DNA of 20,350 nt from a virus: positions 1-20,350 of IMG/VR virus record IMGVR_UViG_3300017697_000133; one strand, 5' to 3'. Under the pieces are notes generated by a model. It was not told the origin of the DNA, did no database searches, and saw nothing but the letters and a program-made list of their open reading frames with translations. Below, one piece after another: positions 12,280-20,350 of this stretch. Position numbers and translations under genes: made by a program. Every line of letters begins with the position of its first letter. Positions within the stretch are counted from its first letter, which is position 1.

Positions 12280-12581
12280 TTTTGTTTCTCCTTAGGTTTG
12301 AATGTCTTTGTTATCGTAGTTTTCCAAGGCCCACGCACCATGACAGGATAATTAGTATCAGTGAGGTAGCAAGTCTCCTGTCCTATCGACTTGGTATGAT
12401 ACACAGCCCATCCTTCTTTCATAGGCTTAGTGTGACAAGGCACTTGAATAGCAGAATAGCTGGCCTTGACACCAGACTTAAAGGTAACTTGTAGCTGATT
12501 ATGTATCTCACCAATATCCCAGTTTACTCCTTGAGATGCTGGTGGAATAATAAGCATAATAGTTATGATTATCTCATTCAC
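12276..12581 (-). CDS. Exported protein, 101 aa
   Basis: The chosen start is a GTG at 12581 that overlaps the stop of the tiny upstream membrane peptide gene as GTGA. A TTG further upstream (12605) or an ATG at 12557 are alternatives. From the GTG, residues 1-15 (VNEIIITIMLIIPPA) form a signal-like hydrophobic stretch followed by a small-residue cleavage-like site (PASQG). The mature part is beta-rich and basic and includes two cysteines. No family recognised. Together with 11775-12074 it suggests the early operon sends several proteins to the envelope. Confidence 0.7.
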   Translation of the reverse strand: MNEIIITIMLIIPPASQGVNWDIGEIHNQLQVTFKSGVKASYSAIQVPCHTKPMKEGWAVYHTKSIGQETCYLTDTNYPVMVRGPWKTTITKTFKPKEKQK

Positions 12582-12649
12582 AACTGAATGTAAATAGCAT
12601 AACAAACAGTAGAAAGAATAATCGCTATAATTAAGAATAGTCTAATCAT
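12578..12649 (-). CDS. Tiny membrane peptide, 23 aa
   Basis: ATG at 12649, four bases after the stop of the preceding gene, with AAGGTG about nine bases upstream. The product, MIRLFLIIAIILSTVCYAIY plus three residues, is a single hydrophobic helix with one positive charge at the N-terminus. Its stop overlaps the GTG start of the next exported protein. It may be a membrane peptide in its own right or a leader that couples translation. Too short for family assignment. Confidence 0.5.
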   Translation of the reverse strand: MIRLFLIIAIILSTVCYAIYIQL

Positions 12650-12653
12650 AATT

Positions 12654-12902
12654 TTATTCACCTTGTTTGCTATATTTCTTTTGTAGTTTTAAATCTTCTA
12701 TCATCCCACGATAAGTCTCATTGCTTGGTTTAATGTCACATGAACCAATTAAATTTATTTGGCTTATATCTGAATTTCTATTTAAGTCTCTTTCTTCTTC
12801 AACTTCTTGACCTTCCCAATTGTAGTTAGCTGTTTCAAAAGCACCATCACCATTAGCAAACCTAGTACTATTTCTTGACATTTCACTACATAAATCTTGC
12901 AT
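12654..12902 (-). CDS. Hypothetical acidic protein, 82 aa
   Basis: Polar protein rich in Asn, Glu, Asp and Ser, with a basic C-terminal end (LKLQKKYSKQ). Two cysteines, no membrane segment. The ATG follows CAGGAGATATACT, a good ribosome binding site. It is the first gene after a 133-base untranslated stretch that carries a promoter-like element and two inverted repeats, so it probably heads a transcription unit. Family not recognised. Confidence 0.75.
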   Translation of the reverse strand: MQDLCSEMSRNSTRFANGDGAFETANYNWEGQEVEEERDLNRNSDISQINLIGSCDIKPSNETYRGMIEDLKLQKKYSKQGE

Positions 12903-12928
12903 AGTATATCTCCTGGTTAAATTAAGTA

Positions 12929-12964
12929 GGGACTTAGGATATCAAAAGGAATACCCTAAGCCCC
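12929..12964 (-). promoter_or_regulatory. Leader hairpin upstream of 82-aa gene
   Basis: Inverted repeat with arms at 12929-12938 and 12955-12964. Read as minus-strand RNA, GGGGCUUAGG pairs with CCUAAGUCCC over ten positions with one G-U pair, around a 16-base loop. No U-tract follows, and the gene start lies only 27 bases downstream. It may be an RNA processing site, a stabiliser or a control element rather than a terminator. Confidence 0.45.
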
Positions 12965-12996
12965 AAGGAGAGAGACAAAAACCATCAAACATCTCT

Positions 12997-13025
12997 CTTA
13001 TAGCATATCTTTAAAACAAATGCAA
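12997..13025 (-). promoter_or_regulatory. Sigma70-like promoter, extended -10
   Basis: On the minus strand TTGCAT (13025-13020) and TATAAG (13002-12997) are separated by 17 bases, and TG precedes the -10 box with one base between, an extended -10 element. It lies in the untranslated stretch between two early genes. It would start a transcript near 12990 reading into the 82-aa gene. An inverted repeat (AGAGAGA 12969-12975 with TCTCTCT 12992-12998) overlaps its -10 and start region. Confidence 0.5.
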
Positions 13026-13035
13026 CCTGAACTTA

Positions 13036-13503
13036 CTAATAAGTAAAAATCCAATCAGGTATTTCACGTTTAGTCCAGTTTAGTAGATCATTCTTTTCAT
13101 ACCAGTAGTAATCGCGATATGCCTTAATTGGGTCTCTGTGTTTATATGGTTCTGGCATAGCTAATTTAAATGGTGTGAGTCCCATACTAGGAATATCAGG
13201 TCTAGTCAAAGAACAAGCTACCTCATAAGACTTATGATTAACCTCTGTATCATACCTATACCGATACTCACTATTTAGATACATAGTCAACTTCTGCAGC
13301 CACAACCAGTTATCTAAAGACTCAGCTACCCACTTAGTACAAGGATGATTCTTATGGACTACCTTATAACCTACTTCACCACCATTCTCTCTGGATACTG
13401 TAGATAACATCTGAGCAGACTCTAGTATCATTTTGACAACGTGTTTATCACAATGATATTTAGCACACTTTTCGATGTCATGGTCTAGCACAAAGATATT
13501 CAT
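13036..13503 (-). CDS. Conserved phage protein of unknown function, 155 aa
   Basis: The N-terminus (MNIFVLD, then CAKYHCDKHVVKMILESAQML) and later blocks (HKNHPCTKWVAES, NWLWL, TPFKLAMPEPYK, AYRDYYWYEK) match a family I recognise from many cyanophages and other tailed phages, where it is usually left unnamed. The dense conserved His/Cys/Asp pattern near the N-terminus looks like a metal or catalytic site, but no activity is established to my knowledge. The start uses GGAGACACAATG. It is in the middle of the early region and ends before the untranslated stretch with the promoter-like element. Confidence 0.85.
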   Translation of the reverse strand: MNIFVLDHDIEKCAKYHCDKHVVKMILESAQMLSTVSRENGGEVGYKVVHKNHPCTKWVAESLDNWLWLQKLTMYLNSEYRYRYDTEVNHKSYEVACSLTRPDIPSMGLTPFKLAMPEPYKHRDPIKAYRDYYWYEKNDLLNWTKREIPDWIFTY

Positions 13504-13512
13504 TGTGTCTCC

Positions 13513-13740
13513 TTATCTCAGACTGTTTAAGTACTTTTTCTTCTTAGTAGCATGGTAGTCATCTACAGTCATAAACTTTCTCGTTTTAGTAGAGTATACT
13601 TCATCATGTAGCTTGATTCCTGGAATATGAGTAGAATCAGTGACATTACCTGACTTATCATAAGACTTTATGTTTACCCCGTGAATCTTACTATGTTCTA
13701 AACTATGTAAATCTACACTGTTACTCTTATGGTTATACAT
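13513..13740 (-). CDS. Hypothetical protein, 75 aa
   Basis: A small basic, hydrophilic protein with many Lys, His, Ser and Thr residues and no membrane segment. The ribosome binding site is AAGGAGAAACATA before the ATG. It lies downstream of an untranslated AT-rich stretch with a large palindrome, so it may be the first gene of a unit. Family not recognised; a nucleic-acid-binding role would be consistent with its charge but is a guess. Confidence 0.72.
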   Translation of the reverse strand: MYNHKSNSVDLHSLEHSKIHGVNIKSYDKSGNVTDSTHIPGIKLHDEVYSTKTRKFMTVDDYHATKKKKYLNSLR

Positions 13741-13804
13741 TATGTTTCTCCTTATGTATTAACTATAGACCTTCTTATACTTGTCTAATACTTTAAAGTA
13801 AGAC

Positions 13805-13832
13805 TATAGTATATACTATATGTTATACTATA
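13805..13832. promoter_or_regulatory. 16-bp perfect palindrome plus third half-site
   Basis: TATAGTATATACTATA at 13805-13820 is a perfect palindrome. The half-site ATACTATA (13813-13820) recurs at 13825-13832, twelve bases on. The set lies in the 147-base gap before the 75-aa gene. On the minus strand TTGAAG stands 17 bases before TAGTAT, so it could be a cluster of -10 boxes, an operator, or both. Confidence 0.4.
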
Positions 13833-13887
13833 TAGAAATGAGTCCTACTTCAACTAAAATATGAGTTTATCCTTTGTTTACTTAGGT

Positions 13888-14295
13888 TTAACTATTGTAA
13901 CTAGTAGTGTGTCTAATGTCATGCTCATAACCATAGTCATTTGTCTCTTCTTGTTTCTTCTTTGCAAGTAAATCCATAGAAGTAATACATCCTAGACCAC
14001 TAAGCTCTAATGAATATTTATTCATCCTCTCCACACCCTTTGTCATGTTTCTCTTATTAAATCTACCATGAGAGAAAGGATCAACAGTATATTCACCAGA
14101 ATTTAGAGCTATATGTAGCACAGATTTCTCACAATTGTCACAAAAGAACTGTATACCCAGTAAAGTAAAACCTACTGATAGACTAGAGGTGTCTCTAGTA
14201 TTACATTTATCACAATAGATATGTTCTATGATCTGTGAATAAGGTGCAAACTGTCTCGTACTAGCTTTATCTAACTTCTTTAGCTTGAATGACAT
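13888..14295 (-). CDS. Hypothetical CxxC protein, 135 aa
   Basis: Two cysteine pairs, CDKC at 28-31 and CDNC at 52-55, with 20 residues between them, look like a small zinc ribbon. The rest is polar with a basic C-terminal half. No signal peptide; one moderately hydrophobic strand (GFTLLGIQFF) lies between the Cys pairs, as in zinc ribbons. The start reads GGAGAATACAATG. A nucleic-acid or protein binding role is plausible for an early phage protein, but the family is not recognised. Confidence 0.78.
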   Translation of the reverse strand: MSFKLKKLDKASTRQFAPYSQIIEHIYCDKCNTRDTSSLSVGFTLLGIQFFCDNCEKSVLHIALNSGEYTVDPFSHGRFNKRNMTKGVERMNKYSLELSGLGCITSMDLLAKKKQEETNDYGYEHDIRHTTSYNS

Positions 14296-14315
14296 TGTAT
14301 TCTCCTTGTAATATC

Positions 14316-14332
14316 CTCAGAGAGGCTCTGAG
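14316..14332 (-). promoter_or_regulatory. Short hairpin in early leader
   Basis: CTCAGAG and CTCTGAG form a perfect 7-bp stem around a 3-base loop, 21 bases before the start of the 135-aa gene. No U-tract follows. The same 116-base gap holds an ATATAG/CTATAT inverted repeat and the 11-base motif shared with the leader at 12952. Processing site or structural leader is possible. Confidence 0.35.
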
Positions 14333-14411
14333 TAGCCTTGTGTTGCTATTTAAGGTCTTACCCTAAGCCACCATATAGGTTTACTATATGATAGCCTAGA
14401 ATCTGATCTCA

Positions 14412-14588
14412 TTAGCTCATAACACCTAAGTAGAAATTACGGGTATTAGTCATATAGACTTGAAATATTAACAGTTTAGCACTATAATAGTCCCACTTTG
14501 CTTTTTCTTTCTTCCATAGTTGATAGTCATCTGTTTGAGTGTAGTATTGATCTAAGTCTGCTCTTAAGTTTGATAGTTCTTGTATCAT
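14412..14588 (-). CDS. Hypothetical protein, 58 aa
   Basis: ATG at 14588 with GGAGG eight bases upstream, overlapping the stop of the previous gene by four bases (ATGA). The peptide begins MIQELSNLRADLDQYYTQTD and continues with a Lys/Trp/Tyr-rich middle (LWKKEKAKWDYY). It is predicted helical, the first half coiled-coil-like. No family recognised. The strong ribosome binding site and coupled start make it a convincing gene despite its size. Confidence 0.75.
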   Translation of the reverse strand: MIQELSNLRADLDQYYTQTDDYQLWKKEKAKWDYYSAKLLIFQVYMTNTRNFYLGVMS

Positions 14589-14845
14589 TTTGATACCTCC
14601 ACAGGTTCGATATAAAGTCTAACATGAGTAGCATATTTAAGAGGTAGAGATTGATCATACATTCTTGAGGTATAACCATTAGAATCAATCATACTCCATT
14701 TAGCCCTTGGGCCTGAGCCTCTTACTCTTATTTTAAATTTACCTTTAGCTTGTTTCTTCAAACTATCTATAGCTTGTTTTGTGTCTTCTGTGTAAGGTAG
14801 TTTTACTTGATATTTGTATTGCTTTGGTAGTAGTACAGTTTTCAT
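14585..14845 (-). CDS. Hypothetical basic protein, 86 aa
   Basis: A basic protein (many Lys and Arg) with the segment GKFKIRVRGSGPRAKW in the middle, and no membrane segment. The ATG overlaps the stop of the methyltransferase-like gene by one base (TAATG), and its own stop overlaps the next gene. It is therefore coupled on both sides. Family not recognised; charge would suit nucleic acid binding. Confidence 0.78.
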   Translation of the reverse strand: MKTVLLPKQYKYQVKLPYTEDTKQAIDSLKKQAKGKFKIRVRGSGPRAKWSMIDSNGYTSRMYDQSLPLKYATHVRLYIEPVEVSK

Positions 14846-15492
14846 TATATGATCCCTTTCATTACAGGTTTAATCCATTGTCTAACAATAGCATCACTGA
14901 TACCATCATAAGTTTTACTTCTTAGCTTCCATCTATCTTTAGTTGGTGGTAGCTTGTGCATTGCTGAACCCTTGACAGGTTTGACTATTCTAGTCTTAAA
15001 TAATGGTGGTAGGTTATCAAGCCAAAAACAGGTAGCTTTAGACTCCTCATGACCATGATGAAAAGGCTGTGTAAGCATATCGTAGTTACCAATGATAGCT
15101 TTAGCATACTTATGTGGTATTGGATTTTCTAAAGCTTTATATTCTACTGGAAGATCTCTTAAATCATTAAAGAAATTACAGGCATCTATCATATCAGTAT
15201 ATCTATCAAAGCCCCTTGATACACCATTAGACTGCTTGTCAGACCATAAGTGACATACACCACTATTAGCTAAATATGTACAGCTAGGATGGCCTATCAG
15301 CATCTTAATGTTAACCACTTGACTAAGTATATCAAAAGCTTTAAATACGTCACCCTTGATATGATAGTTTTTATGTTTTCCTTCACCATCCAATAAGTCA
15401 ACACTAAAGGCCAGAATATTATTGTCTAAGCACTTGTCTCTTATTGTCCCGCTATGCTCACAAGCTATAAAGACTGCATCCTGTTTTTTCAT
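14845..15492 (-). CDS. Phage DNA-methyltransferase-like protein
   Basis: 215 residues resembling a phage family often annotated as DNA cytosine methyltransferase. Visible blocks: a FACEHSG-type N-terminus with VDLLDGEG (31-38) for the cofactor-binding side, YHIKGDVF (43-50), IGHPSCTYLANSG (66-78) at the position of catalytic motif IV, LENP (121-124) resembling motif VI, PFHHGHEESKATCFWL (143-158) and a C-terminal LPPTKDRWKLRSKTY block. The catalytic loop reads Pro-Ser-Cys rather than Pro-Pro-Cys. Activity and target are unproven; it might modify phage DNA against host restriction. The start has AGAGGTAGAACC upstream. Confidence 0.72.
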   Translation of the reverse strand: MKKQDAVFIACEHSGTIRDKCLDNNILAFSVDLLDGEGKHKNYHIKGDVFKAFDILSQVVNIKMLIGHPSCTYLANSGVCHLWSDKQSNGVSRGFDRYTDMIDACNFFNDLRDLPVEYKALENPIPHKYAKAIIGNYDMLTQPFHHGHEESKATCFWLDNLPPLFKTRIVKPVKGSAMHKLPPTKDRWKLRSKTYDGISDAIVRQWIKPVMKGII

Positions 15493-15514
15493 GGTTCTAC
15501 CTCTCTCAAAAGGT

Positions 15515-15598
15515 TTATAACAATATTAGAATTAGTATACCAGTGAGTACACCAAATAAACAAGCAAAAAGAATATCATTTATGTCTAGTTTATACAT
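15515..15598 (-). CDS. Tiny membrane peptide, 27 aa
   Basis: ATG at 15598 with AAAGGA eight bases upstream; the ribosome binding site starts right after the stop of the 105-aa gene. The product has a polar start (MYKLDINDI) and then one hydrophobic helix of about 18 residues up to its C-terminus. It lies alone in the gap before the methyltransferase-like gene, where no other frame explains the spacing. Function unknown. Confidence 0.6.
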   Translation of the reverse strand: MYKLDINDILFACLFGVLTGILILILL

Positions 15599-15610
15599 TT
15601 TATTTATCCT

Positions 15611-15928
15611 TTAGTTATTTAGATCAACTAATTTATACTCACCACTATTTATCTTAGCTTGTGTTTCTTTTGTTGATTCATTTAAGAATTGGTTACGGTA
15701 TTTACTAGTAGTTACGCTATAGTTCCAATAGGTTTTATCTAGGACTATTTCAAATCTATGAGAATTGAGGTCATCTTTAGTAAAAGCAGTAGTATTATTT
15801 AAGTCTGGTATCTTAGCAATGATGCTATCATAGCTTTGAAAATATGTATTCCCTTGGTCATCTTCAATAACATATTGATTAGCTACTGGTTTACCCGTTC
15901 TTCCAAGTAATGGTTTTACTTTGGTCAT
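15611..15928 (-). CDS. Conserved phage protein of unknown function, 105 aa
   Basis: A soluble protein whose blocks LLGRTGKPVANQYVIED, YFQSYDSIIAKI, YWNYSVTTSKYRNQFL and the final YKLVDLNN fit a pattern I recall from many tailed phages, where it has no named role. The WxYSxTTxKYxxxFL signature near residues 68-82 is the most typical part. No signal or membrane segment. The start reads AAAGGAGAACACAATG, the common early-gene form. Early position suggests a host-takeover or regulatory role, but nothing in the sequence shows which. Confidence 0.8.
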   Translation of the reverse strand: MTKVKPLLGRTGKPVANQYVIEDDQGNTYFQSYDSIIAKIPDLNNTTAFTKDDLNSHRFEIVLDKTYWNYSVTTSKYRNQFLNESTKETQAKINSGEYKLVDLNN

Positions 15929-15947
15929 TGTGTTCTCCTTTGGTTAA

Positions 15948-16073
15948 TTAAAGTTTATTACTAATAGACACATAAACTATCATATTGTGATTGTGTGTCA
16001 AGAATAATTTCCATGTTTCTCTATATTCTCTATAATACTCACCGTCTAATCGTTTACCCCAAAAATTATACAT
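15948..16073 (-). CDS. Hypothetical protein, 41 aa
   Basis: ATG at 16073 with AAGGGA about eight bases upstream, directly after the stop of the 33-aa membrane peptide. The peptide is rich in Tyr, Arg and Trp in its first half (MYNFWGKRLDGEYYREYRET) and ends in a short hydrophobic beta-like stretch. It fills the gap between two convincing early genes. No family recognised. Confidence 0.6.
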   Translation of the reverse strand: MYNFWGKRLDGEYYREYRETWKLFLTHNHNMIVYVSISNKL

Positions 16074-16084
16074 TATGTTGTCCC

Positions 16085-16186
16085 TTAGTTAGTTAAAGCA
16101 ATTAATAAGTGACTAAATACAAAACACCAACTCATAATGCCCAATGCTCCTATAAGACTTACACCTAACATCTTGATGGTTTCCAT
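16085..16186 (-). CDS. Tiny membrane peptide, 33 aa
   Basis: ATG at 16186 with the early-gene start motif AAAGGAGATACACAATG. The peptide METIKMLGVSLIGALGIMSW continues as one long hydrophobic helix to its C-terminus, with a Lys near the N-terminus. It is a single-span inner membrane peptide by appearance. The ribosome binding site is among the best in the window, so translation is likely. Function unknown. Confidence 0.68.
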   Translation of the reverse strand: METIKMLGVSLIGALGIMSWCFVFSHLLIALTN

Positions 16187-16206
16187 TGTGTATCTCCTTT
16201 GTTAAA

Positions 16207-16374
16207 TTAATTTGTTGTTTCTTCTTCTATTGTTTCGTTAATCCATCCGTTATTAATCACTTGCTGTTGTTTCTCTAAAAGTTTAAGGCTTTTAGTTATA
16301 TCAGTATTATAATAAATCTTACTCCATCTAATTGCTTTTCGTATTTCTTTAAGTGTTAAATTCTTATAGTTCAT
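16207..16374 (-). CDS. First early gene, hypothetical, 55 aa
   Basis: I place the start at the ATG at 16374, which follows GGAGACAAC by a few bases; the open frame upstream of it is hydrophobic by chance in AT-rich DNA and lacks a ribosome binding site. The 55-residue product is charged and helical (MNYKNLTLKEIRKAIRWSKI at its start) with an acidic C-terminus. It is the first gene after the long untranslated stretch, the position of T7 gene 0.3, an anti-restriction protein. No similarity to that protein is visible, so its role is open. Confidence 0.7.
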   Translation of the reverse strand: MNYKNLTLKEIRKAIRWSKIYYNTDITKSLKLLEKQQQVINNGWINETIEEETTN

Positions 16375-16408
16375 TGTGTTGTCTCCGTGTTTAATTAATG
16401 TTGATGTC

Positions 16409-16436
16409 AATATACTAAAAAAATAAATAAAAGCAA
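16409..16436 (-). promoter_or_regulatory. Candidate early host promoter
   Basis: On the minus strand TTGCTT (16436-16431) and TATATT (16414-16409) are 16 bases apart, 34 bases before the first early gene. The -10 matches five of six consensus bases, the -35 is weak. The surrounding DNA is very AT-rich, so a chance match is possible. Confidence 0.3.
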
Positions 16437-16783
16437 TAAACAGAAAAATAAAATGCATTCATTAACAATAATTAATGTTAGCAATAAGTCACAACCAGGC
16501 TAACTTATTGTAAACAAAAGGCTTGAGCTGATTAACATAACACACACATTGCATGGCTTGTGGTATACCATAAGTGTTATCCCTTGTTTGCCCTATGTTT
16601 AATGATAAATAAAAAAACAAATTACCACACAAGAGACACAAGCCCAACCTGTAGACAACATAATGACCACACCAGCCAGCCTAATGATGACATTGTGTCA
16701 AACTTTAAGTTTTCTTTGTGTCGCTCTAATGAATATATAAGTGTCGATGGGGGGAAATTTTGCTTTCGACTAGTGCGTATACC

Positions 16784-16815
16784 CCCTCAGATTTTTACTT
16801 TAAATTATCTGAGGG
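16784..16815 (-). terminator. 9-bp hairpin after the last late gene
   Basis: CCCTCAGAT (16784-16792) and ATCTGAGGG (16807-16815) form a perfect 9-bp inverted repeat around a 14-base AT-rich loop, 16 bases after the stop of the 31-aa gene. There is no U-tract on either strand. It could end or stabilise the late transcript, or be part of the structure at the packaged genome end. Confidence 0.4.
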
Positions 16816-16831
16816 AGCACACATAGTTTAC

Positions 16832-16927
16832 CTAATACGTCCTAAGTTTCACAGGTTTCTGCTTAGGTGGCTTCTTACCTACCTTAGGTTTAGGCTTAGG
16901 GTTCTTATATCCTTTAAGTTTGGGCAT
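16832..16927 (-). CDS. Lys/Pro-rich peptide, 31 aa
   Basis: ATG at 16927 with AAAGGA upstream, one base after the stop of the previous gene. The product begins MPKLKGYKNPKPKPKVGKKP and is about one third lysine with many prolines, so it is strongly basic and probably unstructured. It is the last gene before the untranslated stretch. Binding to DNA, RNA or another acidic partner would suit its charge, but this is only inference. No family assigned. Confidence 0.6.
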   Translation of the reverse strand: MPKLKGYKNPKPKPKVGKKPPKQKPVKLRTY

Positions 16928-16928
16928 A

Positions 16929-17120
16929 TTACAGTCCTTTGTGGTTCCTTATTTCACCTTTAGATGACTCATAAGGAAGTCTAGTTGATAATTTAGTTAC
17001 ACCTTGGTTTTTTAAGGTCATACCTCTAGTATCTTTAGGACTAGGGGTAGGATTACGGCCTCCAAGGCTTGAATTGAAGCCCCCATTGCCTACGTCTCCT
17101 GCTACCTTCTTTACTTTCAT
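16929..17120 (-). CDS. Hypothetical protein, 63 aa
   Basis: The ATG follows AAAGGAGCTGGAA, one of the strongest ribosome binding sites in the window. The product is rich in Gly, Asn, Ser, Lys and Pro and looks disordered (for example GNGGFNSSLGGRNPTPSP). No signal, membrane segment or cysteine. It sits between the terminase block and the 31-aa basic peptide. Function unknown. Confidence 0.68.
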   Translation of the reverse strand: MKVKKVAGDVGNGGFNSSLGGRNPTPSPKDTRGMTLKNQGVTKLSTRLPYESSKGEIRNHKGL

Positions 17121-17214
17121 TTTCCAGCTCCTTTGTTTTAATAATTTTAGGTACTCGTTTTACTTTATGCTGCGGTTTATGAACATGATAATCTTTCTTT
17201 TCTTGTATATTCAC
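17053..17214 (-). CDS. Possible basic protein, 53 aa, GTG start
   Basis: A frame opening with GTG at 17214 runs 53 codons and overlaps the starts and ends of both neighbours. It contains a protein-like basic stretch (HKVKRVPKIIKTKELENE) and ends with QWGLQFKPWRP. There is no clear ribosome binding site and it overlaps the 63-aa gene by 68 bases. It fills the otherwise empty 17121-17176, which is the main argument for it. Confidence 0.3.
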   Translation of the reverse strand: MNIQEKKDYHVHKPQHKVKRVPKIIKTKELENESKEGSRRRRQWGLQFKPWRP

Positions 17215-17284
17215 TTGGATAAACTATGCTCCATGTGCCACATTGATTAAGAAGGGTTGGTTGATTTACAGGTATATCAATCAT
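17177..17284 (-). CDS. Possible small protein, 35 aa
   Basis: ATG at 17284 overlaps the stop of the preceding 66-aa gene (ATGATTGA), which suggests coupling. The product includes NQPTLLNQCGTWSIVYPSEY and has a non-random feel, with one Trp, two Cys and mixed charges. The frame is open further upstream (an ATG at 17374) inside the neighbour. Function unknown. Confidence 0.42.
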   Translation of the reverse strand: MIDIPVNQPTLLNQCGTWSIVYPSEYTRKERLSCS

Positions 17285-17477
17285 ACCCTGAAGGAGGATA
17301 TCTTCCTTTACGTCTTTCATAGGGTTCATCCCAAGGGACTGCTCCTCTTGATTTATTTTCTTGTCTTCTGTCATACTTTCTTTTCTCTTGTTTATATTCA
17401 TTTAATTCTTGTCTCAATAGCTCTATTGTTGCTTCTTTCATAATACAAGCAGTACAAGAATCAACATAATGCTTCAT
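17277..17477 (-). CDS. Hypothetical coiled-coil protein, 66 aa
   Basis: The N-terminal part carries two cysteines in CTAC (9-12). Residues about 14-40 are a charged helix likely to form a coiled coil (IELLRQELNEYKQEKRKYDRR). The C-terminal part is Pro/Arg/Tyr-rich (VPWDEPYERRKGRYPPSGYD). The start overlaps the previous stop by one base. It belongs to the string of small genes after the large terminase. Family not recognised. Confidence 0.75.
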   Translation of the reverse strand: MKHYVDSCTACIMKEATIELLRQELNEYKQEKRKYDRRQENKSRGAVPWDEPYERRKGRYPPSGYD

Positions 17478-17677
17478 TAAGCTCCTCTCCCTTTAAACGG
17501 TACACAACCTAAGTTAATTTCTCTTGGTATGGGATTGTTACTATCAGTAGCCTCCTTAAAAATGGTTCGCATACGCTTAATACAGTTTTGCTCACTGTGA
17601 AAGGTTTGCCCTATCTCAGCGTGTACTACAGATATAGGATCACCCCCTAGGTGGATTATCATTAGTAACCAAAGCAT
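17477..17677 (-). CDS. Small exported protein after terminase, 66 aa
   Basis: The first residues (MLWLLMIIHLGG) are hydrophobic and signal-like, though without a clear positive N-terminus. The rest is polar with C32 and C58, which could pair outside the cytoplasm; EQNCIKRM and NLGCVPFKG are the Cys contexts. The ATG is one base after the terminase stop, with AAGG upstream. I recall similar small exported proteins next to terminase in marine phages, but no function is established. Confidence 0.72.
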   Translation of the reverse strand: MLWLLMIIHLGGDPISVVHAEIGQTFHSEQNCIKRMRTIFKEATDSNNPIPREINLGCVPFKGRGA

Positions 17678-17678
17678 T

Positions 17679-19334
17679 TTACCTTGCCTGAGTCCATACT
17701 GACTCGTCTATATTAGTTTCATTTACAGTATTCATAAAGTTCATTATACCATCCATAAACTCCTCTTGTTGTCGCTCTTTGTAAGCAGCGTGTTCATCTT
17801 GGGCCATTTGTTCCCACCAATACTGAACTCCCATAGCCAGAACATCAAGCCTATCGTCATACTGGAGAGACCCTTTGTCTCTCGTCAATCTAGTCATCTG
17901 GTAAAACAGTTGTCTCCTAGGTTCTTCTTTAGATTCCTCATAGTCCCTTTCTACTTCACTTCTATCAATTACAAGTCTATGTTGATTCATAACAGGCTCT
18001 AAGGCATCTATAATTCTGGCCTCCTTCTGTTTACTATGCTTGATCTCCTCAACAGTGCATCTGTGGTACTTAAAGAGGACGGGCTTAAATATCTCAGTAT
18101 ACATCCCGTCCCCAAAGTTAGCCTCAATTTCAACGAGATTGACTTTGTGTTTCTTAGCAATATTAGCCAACTTCGTAAGAGTGAAGTTGTCGTACCCACC
18201 TTTAAGTCCTCCTACTTCAACTACAAAGATTTTACCATGTAACATCTTAGTAACTACATAACCTGTCTCATCCTGTCCTCTACCACTAGGATCAATGTGC
18301 ATAGCAGCACCAGTATAGGTAAAATAGTCCTGTGAGACGTGCATAGCCTTATAAAAATAGTCTCCAGTAAGTCCTACAGCAGGTAAATCTAGTATTTCAT
18401 CCTTACCATAGAGGACTTCTCCTGGCCCTTGCTCTGTACTTAATGGTATTACAATTAAATCTTTAAGTTTCAATGGGAATCTCTGGTCATCTTCACCAGA
18501 AGTATCCAACATAAACTGTAGTGCAAACCCTGATTTACCATAGGAAGCTTCTCGTTCAGATAGATCAAGGCTATCAAACCTCAATGGGTCTGTAGGCTCC
18601 TGAGCTTCGATCTGAAGCTTCTTTATAAAAGGCGATAGTCGGTGTGCATAGAACTCTTTTAAGCGATTGTCGGGCATCCTAGCGGGCCATATGCGACATT
18701 CATAGCCTCTATCTTGTAATCCTGCATATAATGACTCTTCAACCTGTGGAGTACCAAGGTAGATAATACGTCCTACCTTAGGCATCACCACAGCATCGAA
18801 TTCTTTTACTACTTCGCCCAATTTGTCTCTCATTACTTGGGTTAAAGCATTGGATAATACTTCAACATCATCAGCAATGATAAAGTGAGCACGAGACCCT
18901 ACAATCTGTCCAGTGATACCTACAGACTTAACTGAAGGTGCGTGAGCAGCTCTACTTGGGGCTACATCAAAGGCAACATTAGAGTTTCTTTGTTCTTCTC
19001 TTGCCCTGAGATGCTGTAAGATAGGCATCTCGTGTATGATACGTTTAGTAAAAGTAGAGAAATCGTCTGCCCTTTGTTTAGATGCAGATATAACTAGAAA
19101 CTTTAGTTGTGGATCAACCAGTAACTTCCATACAACAAAAGCAGAAGTAATCCAAGATTTACCAACACCTCTGAAGGCTTGTATAATAAGTCTCTTAGGC
19201 CCTTCTTGGAGATACTCAGCGATGTCGTATTGTATAGGAGTAGGAGGAGGTAGAGCAAGGTGCTTCCAAGCAATGTAAAGAAAATTACGGAAGTCACTTT
19301 TAATTAGTTCTAGTTGATCTACTTGGTGTTTCAT
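17679..19334 (-). CDS. Terminase large subunit, T7 gp19-type
   Basis: The ATPase and nuclease that packages DNA into the procapsid and cuts concatemers. 551 aa from the ATG at 19334 (a TTG directly upstream is an alternative; GGAG fits both); T7 gp19 is 586 aa. The ATPase part has Walker A QAFRGVGKSW (about 52-61) and Walker B FIIADDVE (about 151-158), then the coupling motif YLGTPQ (about 192-197). The nuclease part has HIDPSGRGQDETGY (D348), LVEIEANFGDGMY (E402/E404) and DDRLDVLAMG (about 493-502) as the last acidic pair. It overlaps the small subunit gene by 35 bases. The T7-type protein predicts packaging with direct terminal repeats. Confidence 0.95.
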   Translation of the reverse strand: MKHQVDQLELIKSDFRNFLYIAWKHLALPPPTPIQYDIAEYLQEGPKRLIIQAFRGVGKSWITSAFVVWKLLVDPQLKFLVISASKQRADDFSTFTKRIIHEMPILQHLRAREEQRNSNVAFDVAPSRAAHAPSVKSVGITGQIVGSRAHFIIADDVEVLSNALTQVMRDKLGEVVKEFDAVVMPKVGRIIYLGTPQVEESLYAGLQDRGYECRIWPARMPDNRLKEFYAHRLSPFIKKLQIEAQEPTDPLRFDSLDLSEREASYGKSGFALQFMLDTSGEDDQRFPLKLKDLIVIPLSTEQGPGEVLYGKDEILDLPAVGLTGDYFYKAMHVSQDYFTYTGAAMHIDPSGRGQDETGYVVTKMLHGKIFVVEVGGLKGGYDNFTLTKLANIAKKHKVNLVEIEANFGDGMYTEIFKPVLFKYHRCTVEEIKHSKQKEARIIDALEPVMNQHRLVIDRSEVERDYEESKEEPRRQLFYQMTRLTRDKGSLQYDDRLDVLAMGVQYWWEQMAQDEHAAYKERQQEEFMDGIMNFMNTVNETNIDESVWTQAR

Positions 19335-19569
19335 CAAACGGTAACTCCTCTACTAATCCTTTTATGTCTTCATTATTAGCACCAAGGCACTCAATATTAT
19401 TGTCTCGTAGAAACTGCCTTGCAACATTAAGGACTGATGCAGGAGCTGATACTTGTTCAATAGTTCCATCTTTAGATACCGTAGTTACACCGTTAAGAAG
19501 TTGGTCTTTAAGTGTTCTAGCGATAATACCATGTAGATCACCAAGGTCTTTAACAGTTCCATTACTCAT
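19300..19569 (-). CDS. Terminase small subunit, T7 gp18-type
   Basis: 89 residues, the same length as T7 gp18. It directly precedes and overlaps the large subunit, as in all T7-like phages. The sequence has a helical N-terminal half and the block SVLNVARQFLRDNNIE (46-61), which is typical of this family in marine podoviruses (ARxFLKDNNIE). It would recognise the concatemer and regulate the large subunit. The start overlaps the stop of the lipoprotein gene by one base (TAATG). Confidence 0.85.
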   Translation of the reverse strand: MSNGTVKDLGDLHGIIARTLKDQLLNGVTTVSKDGTIEQVSAPASVLNVARQFLRDNNIECLGANNEDIKGLVEELPFDETPSRSTRTN

Positions 19570-19856
19570 TATTTACATACCTCTTTATAGAGATCATTAT
19601 TTCTAGCTATCTTAGCTAAATCTTTTACTACTACACCAGTAGGTTTATTCTTAGTTATCCACTCTTTAGTCTCAGCACTAAGTTGTACTGGCTCATACCA
19701 CAGACATTCTTTAGAGTAGTATGAGTCAGCATTGTATAGTCCTAATCCAAAGTTAGCTGCTGGTGCAGCCATTTCTGATAATAAACTACAGCCCGTTAAG
19801 GACATCAGTAACACCAGTGCGATCTTTAACTTCAGCTTTTGCTTTATCCAGTTCAT
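19569..19856 (-). CDS. Lipoprotein, candidate outer-membrane spanin (Rz1-like)
   Basis: 95 residues. A basic N-terminus (NWIKQKLKLK) and hydrophobic helix are followed by the lipobox LTGC with C23 as the lipidated residue. The mature part contains CLWYEPVQLSAETKEWIT and ends in NNDLYKEVCK, a pattern I have seen in phage lysis lipoproteins of the CxWxxPIxLS type. The start lies within the 3' end of the upstream membrane protein gene, a 71-base out-of-frame overlap as in Rz/Rz1 pairs. It lacks the proline-rich segment of classic Rz1. Role in outer membrane disruption is inferred. Confidence 0.7.
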   Translation of the reverse strand: MNWIKQKLKLKIALVLLMSLTGCSLLSEMAAPAANFGLGLYNADSYYSKECLWYEPVQLSAETKEWITKNKPTGVVVKDLAKIARNNDLYKEVCK

Positions 19857-20064
19857 CTTCTACTTCTTGTAATGCAGCCATCCCTTTAGGATGATTGACG
19901 TTATTAAAGATGTTACCAGCTAACCAGTTAAAGATAGGCCAAAGTTTACCTAAGACAGGTATTTTATTAACAAACCTGTCAGGCATAGCTCCAGTTAGAG
20001 CTGTAAACATTAGTACTACTTCTCCTACTATCTGGAACCAACTTTGGTTCATAAACATTTCCAT
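19786..20064 (-). CDS. Membrane protein, candidate holin or inner-membrane spanin
   Basis: 92 residues. Residues 8-27 form a membrane helix (WFQIVGEVVLMFTALTGAM), and 35-52 (IPVLGKLWPIFNWLAGNI) is a second, weaker hydrophobic segment. The C-terminal third is a charged helix (ALQEVEDELDKAKAEVKDR) able to form a coiled coil. Two readings fit: a small holin with a charged tail, or the inner-membrane partner of the overlapping lipoprotein. Related short phage proteins with an LAGN motif near lysis genes are often annotated as holin without proof. The start has AAGGAGAAACAGA upstream. Confidence 0.6.
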   Translation of the reverse strand: MEMFMNQSWFQIVGEVVLMFTALTGAMPDRFVNKIPVLGKLWPIFNWLAGNIFNNVNHPKGMAALQEVEDELDKAKAEVKDRTGVTDVLNGL

Positions 20065-20075
20065 TCTGTTTCTCC

Positions 20076-20168
20076 TTAATTACATGGTGTACAAACATAG
20101 TATGCTAAACACCATCCTGCTATTACCATCATTGCCATAGTCCAAGGAAACCTATTTAATACATCCAT
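20076..20168 (-). CDS. Tiny membrane peptide, 30 aa
   Basis: ATG at 20168, one base after the stop of the upstream gene. The product MDVLNRFPWTMAMMVIAGWC continues as one hydrophobic helix and ends in VCTPCN, with three cysteines in total. There is no clear ribosome binding site, so translation would depend on coupling to the upstream gene. Its stop sits in the ribosome binding site region of the membrane protein gene. It may be part of the lysis cassette. Confidence 0.5.
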   Translation of the reverse strand: MDVLNRFPWTMAMMVIAGWCLAYYVCTPCN

Positions 20169-20169
20169 A

Positions 20170-20350
20170 TTAGTCACAATTTCTATCCATTATGTGTACA
20201 TTAATAATTAGAGATAATGGAATACTACCATATCCCTTGTATTTTCCTGCCTCACTCATATCCTTATTATATCCTATAACTAGATGATCATTAGATACAC
20301 CCATAAGAAAACCACAGGACTCATAGATAGCCCTTTGTATATCTAAGTCA
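20170..20350 (-). CDS. 3' end of an unidentified gene, cut by window edge
   Basis: A frame is open from the window edge to a TAA at 20172-20170, giving 59 residues. It begins DLDIQRAIYESCGFLMGVSN and ends NVHIMDRNCD. The mix of residues looks coding. It stands just upstream of the lysis and terminase genes, where T7-like phages carry tail fibre genes or small proteins, but nothing visible identifies it. Confidence 0.6.
   Translation of the reverse strand, partial: DLDIQRAIYESCGFLMGVSNDHLVIGYNKDMSEAGKYKGYGSIPLSLIINVHIMDRNCD

Follow-up and report, generated by a model that had tools for sequence, protein, structure and literature searches.

Of four frames of 23 to 33 codons in a marine T7-like phage contig, at least two are genuine genes under selection in related phages, and a third probably is. 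Each encodes one hydrophobic helix, and all four (here P1 to P4) lie on the minus strand of the window, a virus contig of 20,350 bases carrying T7-like (autographivirus) genes (Table 1). The frames are unrelated to one another: one encodes a terminase-side peptide that is widespread, the others early peptides that are exchanged rapidly. Taken jointly, the observations are best explained if the frames are genuine single-helix micro-genes, with P4 belonging to the lysis side and P1-P3 being early host-membrane accessory peptides, a combined reading to which we give about even chances.

No isolate reaches 60% identity to the RNA polymerase of the window (the best of the matches listed has about 34%), and the large terminase likewise stays below 60% against isolates; relatives in IMG/VR are many and range from a 99.9% identical contig (L012) to distant ones. 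At 16500-17679 (minus strand) the TerL gene passes directly into the early region, which is the join of the ends of a T7-like genome, and the same TerL/early order in L004 and L015 indicates that the contigs are circularly permuted or concatemer-derived. Downstream of TerL, a 31-codon lysine/proline-rich frame, MPKLKGYKNPKPKPKVGKKPPKQKPVKLRTY (16832-16927, minus strand), is kept in dozens of contigs and is a further missed micro-gene, not a membrane peptide.

Table 1. Features of the window discussed in the text
Feature	Coordinates	Strand	Remarks
Exported protein, ~101 residues	12276..12581	-	Start GTG at 12581-12579 shares GTGA with the P1 stop
P1, 23-codon single-helix peptide, M-x-R start	12578..12649	-	Similar peptides in relatives
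P2, 27-codon single-helix peptide, [IL]-D-[IL] N-terminal motif	15515..15598	-	Slot counterparts in relatives
P2 ribosome site with overlapping stop of the 105-residue gene, TAAAGGATAAATAAA	15599..15613	-	Upstream sequences compared
P3, 33-codon single-helix peptide	16085..16186	-	Strong ribosome site AAGGAG at 7 nt
Large terminase subunit (TerL)	17679..19337	-	53-59% identity to autographivirus TerL among the isolates listed
Small terminase subunit (TerS)	19300..19569	-	PHROG 891, E 1.4e-13
Lipoprotein, LTGC lipobox	19569..19856	-	Begins, out of frame, inside the 92-residue gene; arranged like spanin genes
92-residue membrane protein, two hydrophobic segments and charged C-terminal helix	19786..20064	-	Directly downstream of P4
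P4, 30-codon single-helix peptide	20076..20168	-	Apparent founder of a 27-30-residue family; homologues in relatives
Upstream 93-101-residue soluble protein gene, 3' part	20170..20350	-	Stop TAA at 20170-20172; runs off the window

The frames P1 (MIRLFLIIAIILSTVCYAIYIQL, 23 residues), P2 (MYKLDINDILFACLFGVLTGILILILL, 27 residues), P3 (METIKMLGVSLIGALGIMSWCFVFSHLLIALTN, 33 residues) and P4 (MDVLNRFPWTMAMMVIAGWCLAYYVCTPCN, 30 residues) exist as the initial annotation described them, and the plus-strand readings of the same intervals contain many stops. Its count of three plausible ribosome binding sites was also confirmed (AAGGAG at 7 nt for P3, AAGGA at 8 nt for P2 and AGGTGA at 8 nt for P1), and no convincing Shine-Dalgarno sequence was seen upstream of the P4 start in the window. 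As for the coupled spacing that it described, the P1 stop overlaps the next start (GTGA) and P4 begins one base past a TAA (TAATATG), whereas P2, 12 nt downstream of one gene and 22 nt upstream of the next, and P3, 20 nt from the preceding and 11 nt from the following gene, are tightly packed without overlap.

The chance background was counted for ATG frames of 20-45 codons in the early region with a strong Shine-Dalgarno sequence, whose hydropathy averaged over 17 residues was 1.6 or higher. Two frames on the early coding strand pass (P2 and P3), whereas 300 dinucleotide shuffles gave 0.05 such frames on average and never two; the antisense strand of the window's early region holds no hydrophobic frame with a strong Shine-Dalgarno sequence. 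When the ribosome-site condition was dropped, ten frames were counted on the early coding strand versus about one in shuffles. The early regions of 11 relatives contain six sense versus zero antisense hydrophobic frames with a strong ribosome site. The sense excess is less marked around the 105-residue gene of more distant phages (nine sense versus three antisense at a hydropathy threshold of 1.9).

Judged by sequence comparison, P4 is a genuine protein-coding gene under selection, its start, frame and length being kept and synonymous changes being in excess. Homologues occur in more than 40 contigs, nearly all of them 27-30 residues long, and P4 stands upstream of the 92-residue gene in 28 of the 38 distinct loci that have enough upstream sequence. 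In an 18-sequence alignment M1, M14, G18 and C26 are invariant, and the C-terminal core of the family reads G-x3-[GA]-x-[YF]-[VI]-C followed by zero to four residues. The dN/dS ratio is 0.147 and 0.10 in two subgroups, each value pooling non-independent pairs. Within the window's group the P4 start abuts the stop of the 93-101-residue gene (TAATATG or TAATG), whose end in L025, L031 and L047 meets or overlaps that start; in another group P4 has a ribosome site to itself, TAAGGAG. AlphaFold2 models P4 as one helix spanning residues 3-26 (mean pLDDT 78), and its hydropathy of 1.66 over 17 residues is that of a peptide with at least one membrane-spanning helix. P4 has no PHROG match, P2 and P3 have none that convinces, and tblastn against 50,697 isolated-phage records (INPHARED) returned nothing for P4 (at E 10), for P2 or for P3; compared with these two collections, P4 appears to be the founder of a previously unlisted peptide family.

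P2 is likewise a genuine gene as seen through the counterparts in its slot, where selection was measured. Peptides of 26-28 residues with the N-terminal motif occupy this slot in L001 and L023 (MKLLDICIEGVTIGIILYIMMVLTTTL), in L004 (a variant of MKLLDICIEGVTIGIILYIMMVLTTTL), in L003 (MITKIDLNTLVFACLFGVLICILILISF) and in L024 (MTIIDIVGSTLLFIFLGIIIILLMSL), and L031 has a looser 28-residue counterpart; a close variant of the P2 ribosome site, AAGGATAAAACAAA, is present in L001, L004 and L024. The flanking genes vary among several relatives, with length, motif, helix and mostly the ribosome site constant, and that the peptide persists while its neighbours are exchanged speaks for a function in its own right. 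Between the L001 and L004 counterparts there are eight synonymous and four nonsynonymous changes (Fisher p 0.0006, approximate because the test assumes independent pairwise changes); the synonymous bias of the window allele versus L003 is not significant alone (p 0.21).

P1 is probably a genuine micro-gene as well, in view of P1-like peptides of 24-26 residues in three relatives, whose similarity to P1 itself is weak. L009 carries a 24-residue helix peptide in the P1 slot with an ATGA overlap with the next start, and in L007 and L011 a 26-residue peptide precedes, without overlap, a gene that looks like QueE. The L007 and L011 peptides differ by eight synonymous changes and one nonsynonymous change (p 4e-5 in the same approximate test, a figure for the relatives rather than for P1), a constraint which indicates that peptides of P1's build are selected and that P1 is probably one of them. 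The window's own P1 allele shows no statistically strong synonymous bias. P1 is absent from L001, L003, L004 and L015 and has no convincing PHROG match (best E 0.13). DNA homology of the exported-protein gene to several relatives starts exactly at its GTG codon, homologues of the protein were also found, and through the stop-start overlap P1 would hand ribosomes to this start. The place of the window's exported protein after P1 is taken in L011 (421-1975) and L007 (261-1815) by genes that look, by sequence appearance, QueE-like and QueD-like (queuosine/7-deazaguanine), together with a 209-residue protein.

The proposal that gene callers had skipped four genuine genes, examined in relatives for conserved start, length and synonymous bias, thus stands for P4 and P2 and, less directly and through relatives, for P1; P3 was found only in the near-identical L012 and L022, with one nonsynonymous difference. 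That certain frames, and P3 in particular, arose by chance as hydrophobic readings of AT-rich DNA is in our view distinctly unlikely. P3 would fit such an origin in having no independent relative and a sole variant that is nonsynonymous, and without the ribosome-site condition shuffles give about one such frame per early region; once a strong ribosome site is required, however, the shuffle expectation is 0.05, and purifying selection acts on the P4, P2-slot and P1-like frames. Selection and background counts together reject or disfavour chance for P4, P2 and P1, and P3 is a candidate, likely also a micro-gene. That the tiny frames serve mainly as translational leaders or couplers, bringing ribosomes to the next start with the peptide itself irrelevant, is suggested by the P1 stop, which overlaps the next start as that of a leader or coupling peptide would, by the P4 start directly after a stop, and by the exported-protein gene, which in many of 45 distinct loci begins over the end of its upstream neighbour. 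We nevertheless hold this to be very improbable: amino acids are conserved (dN/dS 0.10-0.15 for P4, eight synonymous to one nonsynonymous change for the P1-like peptides, eight to four for P2), P2 retains its slot though the downstream gene changes, in the window a separate ribosome site serves the gene that follows P4, and in L007 and L011 some 50 nt separate the end of the P1-like peptide from the next start.

The initial annotation had further grouped the four frames as a set and read the three early ones as an envelope-directed early programme, perhaps for superinfection exclusion or host membrane control. P1-P3 do lie ahead of the RNA polymerase gene, in the company of exported and multi-span membrane proteins, but the grouping is not supported, since P4 lies upstream of TerS and TerL in a separate conserved cassette, P1-P3 are unrelated and were gained and lost independently, and P2 retains its slot as neighbours are swapped. 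A single system of four related peptides was accordingly rejected, there being no common sequence and an independent presence of each. A narrower version, in which P1-P3 would be superinfection-exclusion or host membrane-takeover peptides of one early programme, is consistent with their position and with the recurrence of different tiny membrane peptides in the early regions of relatives (the six sense versus zero antisense frames above). It is nonetheless unlikely: P1-P3 share neither sequence nor a joint pattern of presence and absence (P1 is missing from L001, L003 and L004, and P3 is confined to near-identical genomes), nothing links them to one pathway, and the P4 member is not early. Our best guess is that P1-P3 are fast-turnover host-envelope peptides, early accessory products that would act on the host inner membrane or on a host membrane protein.

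Downstream of P4 the genes follow in the order 92-residue membrane protein, lipoprotein, TerS, TerL, and the overlap between the lipoprotein and 92-residue genes is also present in relatives. The 92-residue protein (10-sequence alignment A2, mean column identity 81%), whose gene in the window has the ribosome site TAAGGAG, was modelled as helical at a confidence too low for structure comparison (mean pLDDT 55); it has no PHROG match, and its L031 homologue has no Pfam match and one weak PHROG match. In T7, the holin and spanin genes sit in the terminase neighbourhood. One relative has a lysozyme gene between TerS and TerL, and a phage-lysozyme profile run against eight contigs matched in L058 only. 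Because no protein of the P4 cassette has a match among known holin or spanin families, the name lysis cassette rests on position, the lipobox and one relative's lysozyme, from which lysis is the best reading of the P4 neighbourhood. Five loci without P4 (L242, L244, L247, L251 and L259) carry in its place a hydrophobic protein of 68-71 residues and an exported protein of the family that follows P1 in the window's early region. The terminase-side cassette of L244 also contains a further 23-codon membrane peptide, MTRVWFFVASAITLAVWLIVHNL.

As part of such a cassette, P4 would be translated with the terminase-side late packaging and lysis block, in the window via re-initiation right after the upstream stop, and would most likely insert in the inner membrane, where its G-x3-[GA] face could pack with itself or with the adjoining 92-residue protein and its invariant cysteine would be placed at the far membrane edge; there it would be a small lysis component, either of the holin type or one that governs timing. 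We regard as unlikely the stronger claim that the P4 family comprises the smallest lysis-controlling membrane peptides known from dsDNA phages, a minimal holin or holin regulator of 27-30 residues characterized by the membrane-edge cysteine and the packing face and replaced in a sister lineage by the 68-71-residue hydrophobic protein. The 92-residue protein, with its two hydrophobic segments, could itself be the holin, and P4 would then have another role. On another reading, which we find rather unlikely, P4 has no part in lysis and instead belongs with the 92-residue protein, as a small subunit or a partner in assembly, to an undescribed late membrane complex. The arrangement in 28 of 38 loci, with a gap of about 10-30 nt in the window's group, and the short helix with its small-residue face would suit subunit packing; yet in 10 of the 38 loci the 92-residue protein is present and no P4 was detected, so that P4 is not obligatory for it, and the gap between the two genes is 140-240 nt in one lineage and about 500 nt in L054.

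A 20-codon frame, MRSDSRLSYSKPIWWLRVRP (14350-14412, minus strand), was considered as a fifth micro-gene and rejected because its start and frame are not kept in relatives: the DNA is conserved, but the ATG is lost in L009 and L024, L024 has an internal stop, and the sequence is gone in L003. A nucleic-acid element, perhaps one of RNA, is the likelier identity of the interval, and two possible hairpins (CTATA..TATAG and GGCTTA-GGG-TAAGCC) can be discerned by eye; the frame is a useful negative control for the comparative test. A conserved intergenic element (12918-13026, minus strand; 86-93% in L001, L004 and L007) contains a TTGCAT/TATAAG-like promoter, its -10 of the extended kind, together with a leader and a terminator-like stem of 15 pairs (12964-12929), which suggests a short RNA or an attenuator before the P1 cassette. 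No repeated phage promoter was found in the window, where the promoter-like element at 13004 is unique, and a search with the 58-residue neighbour yielded no new early regions.

Phage holins include single-span class III proteins such as T4 T and the small T7 gp17.5. P4 resembles them in its predicted inner-membrane helix and in a gene beside spanin-like and terminase genes, but differs in having no profile match, a competing holin candidate in the adjoining 92-residue protein and a pore that is hypothetical; to our knowledge, its 27-30 residues make it smaller than known holins. The type I toxin peptides TisB, IbsC and DinQ are small, hydrophobic and built of one helix (19-30 residues), like the micro-peptides described here, which in contrast sit in a phage operon with coupled translation. 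Upstream of the terminase of the T7-like marine Pelagivirus HTVC131P, in a region equivalent to that of P4, lies the annotated gp52, also of one helix but longer (40 residues), with other neighbours and no evident sequence similarity. Catalogues of small phage genes hold over 2 million entries (reviewed in PMC11323111), conserved and unannotated ones among them, so the kind of gene is known, and the families appear new with respect to PHROGs and isolate records.

Our results provide comparative evidence that these T7-like phages carry conserved 26-30-codon single-helix genes absent from PHROGs and from isolate records. P4 forms a compact family beside the terminase genes of phages without an otherwise recognisable lysis system and, if it does control lysis, would represent a natural lysis protein of very small size.
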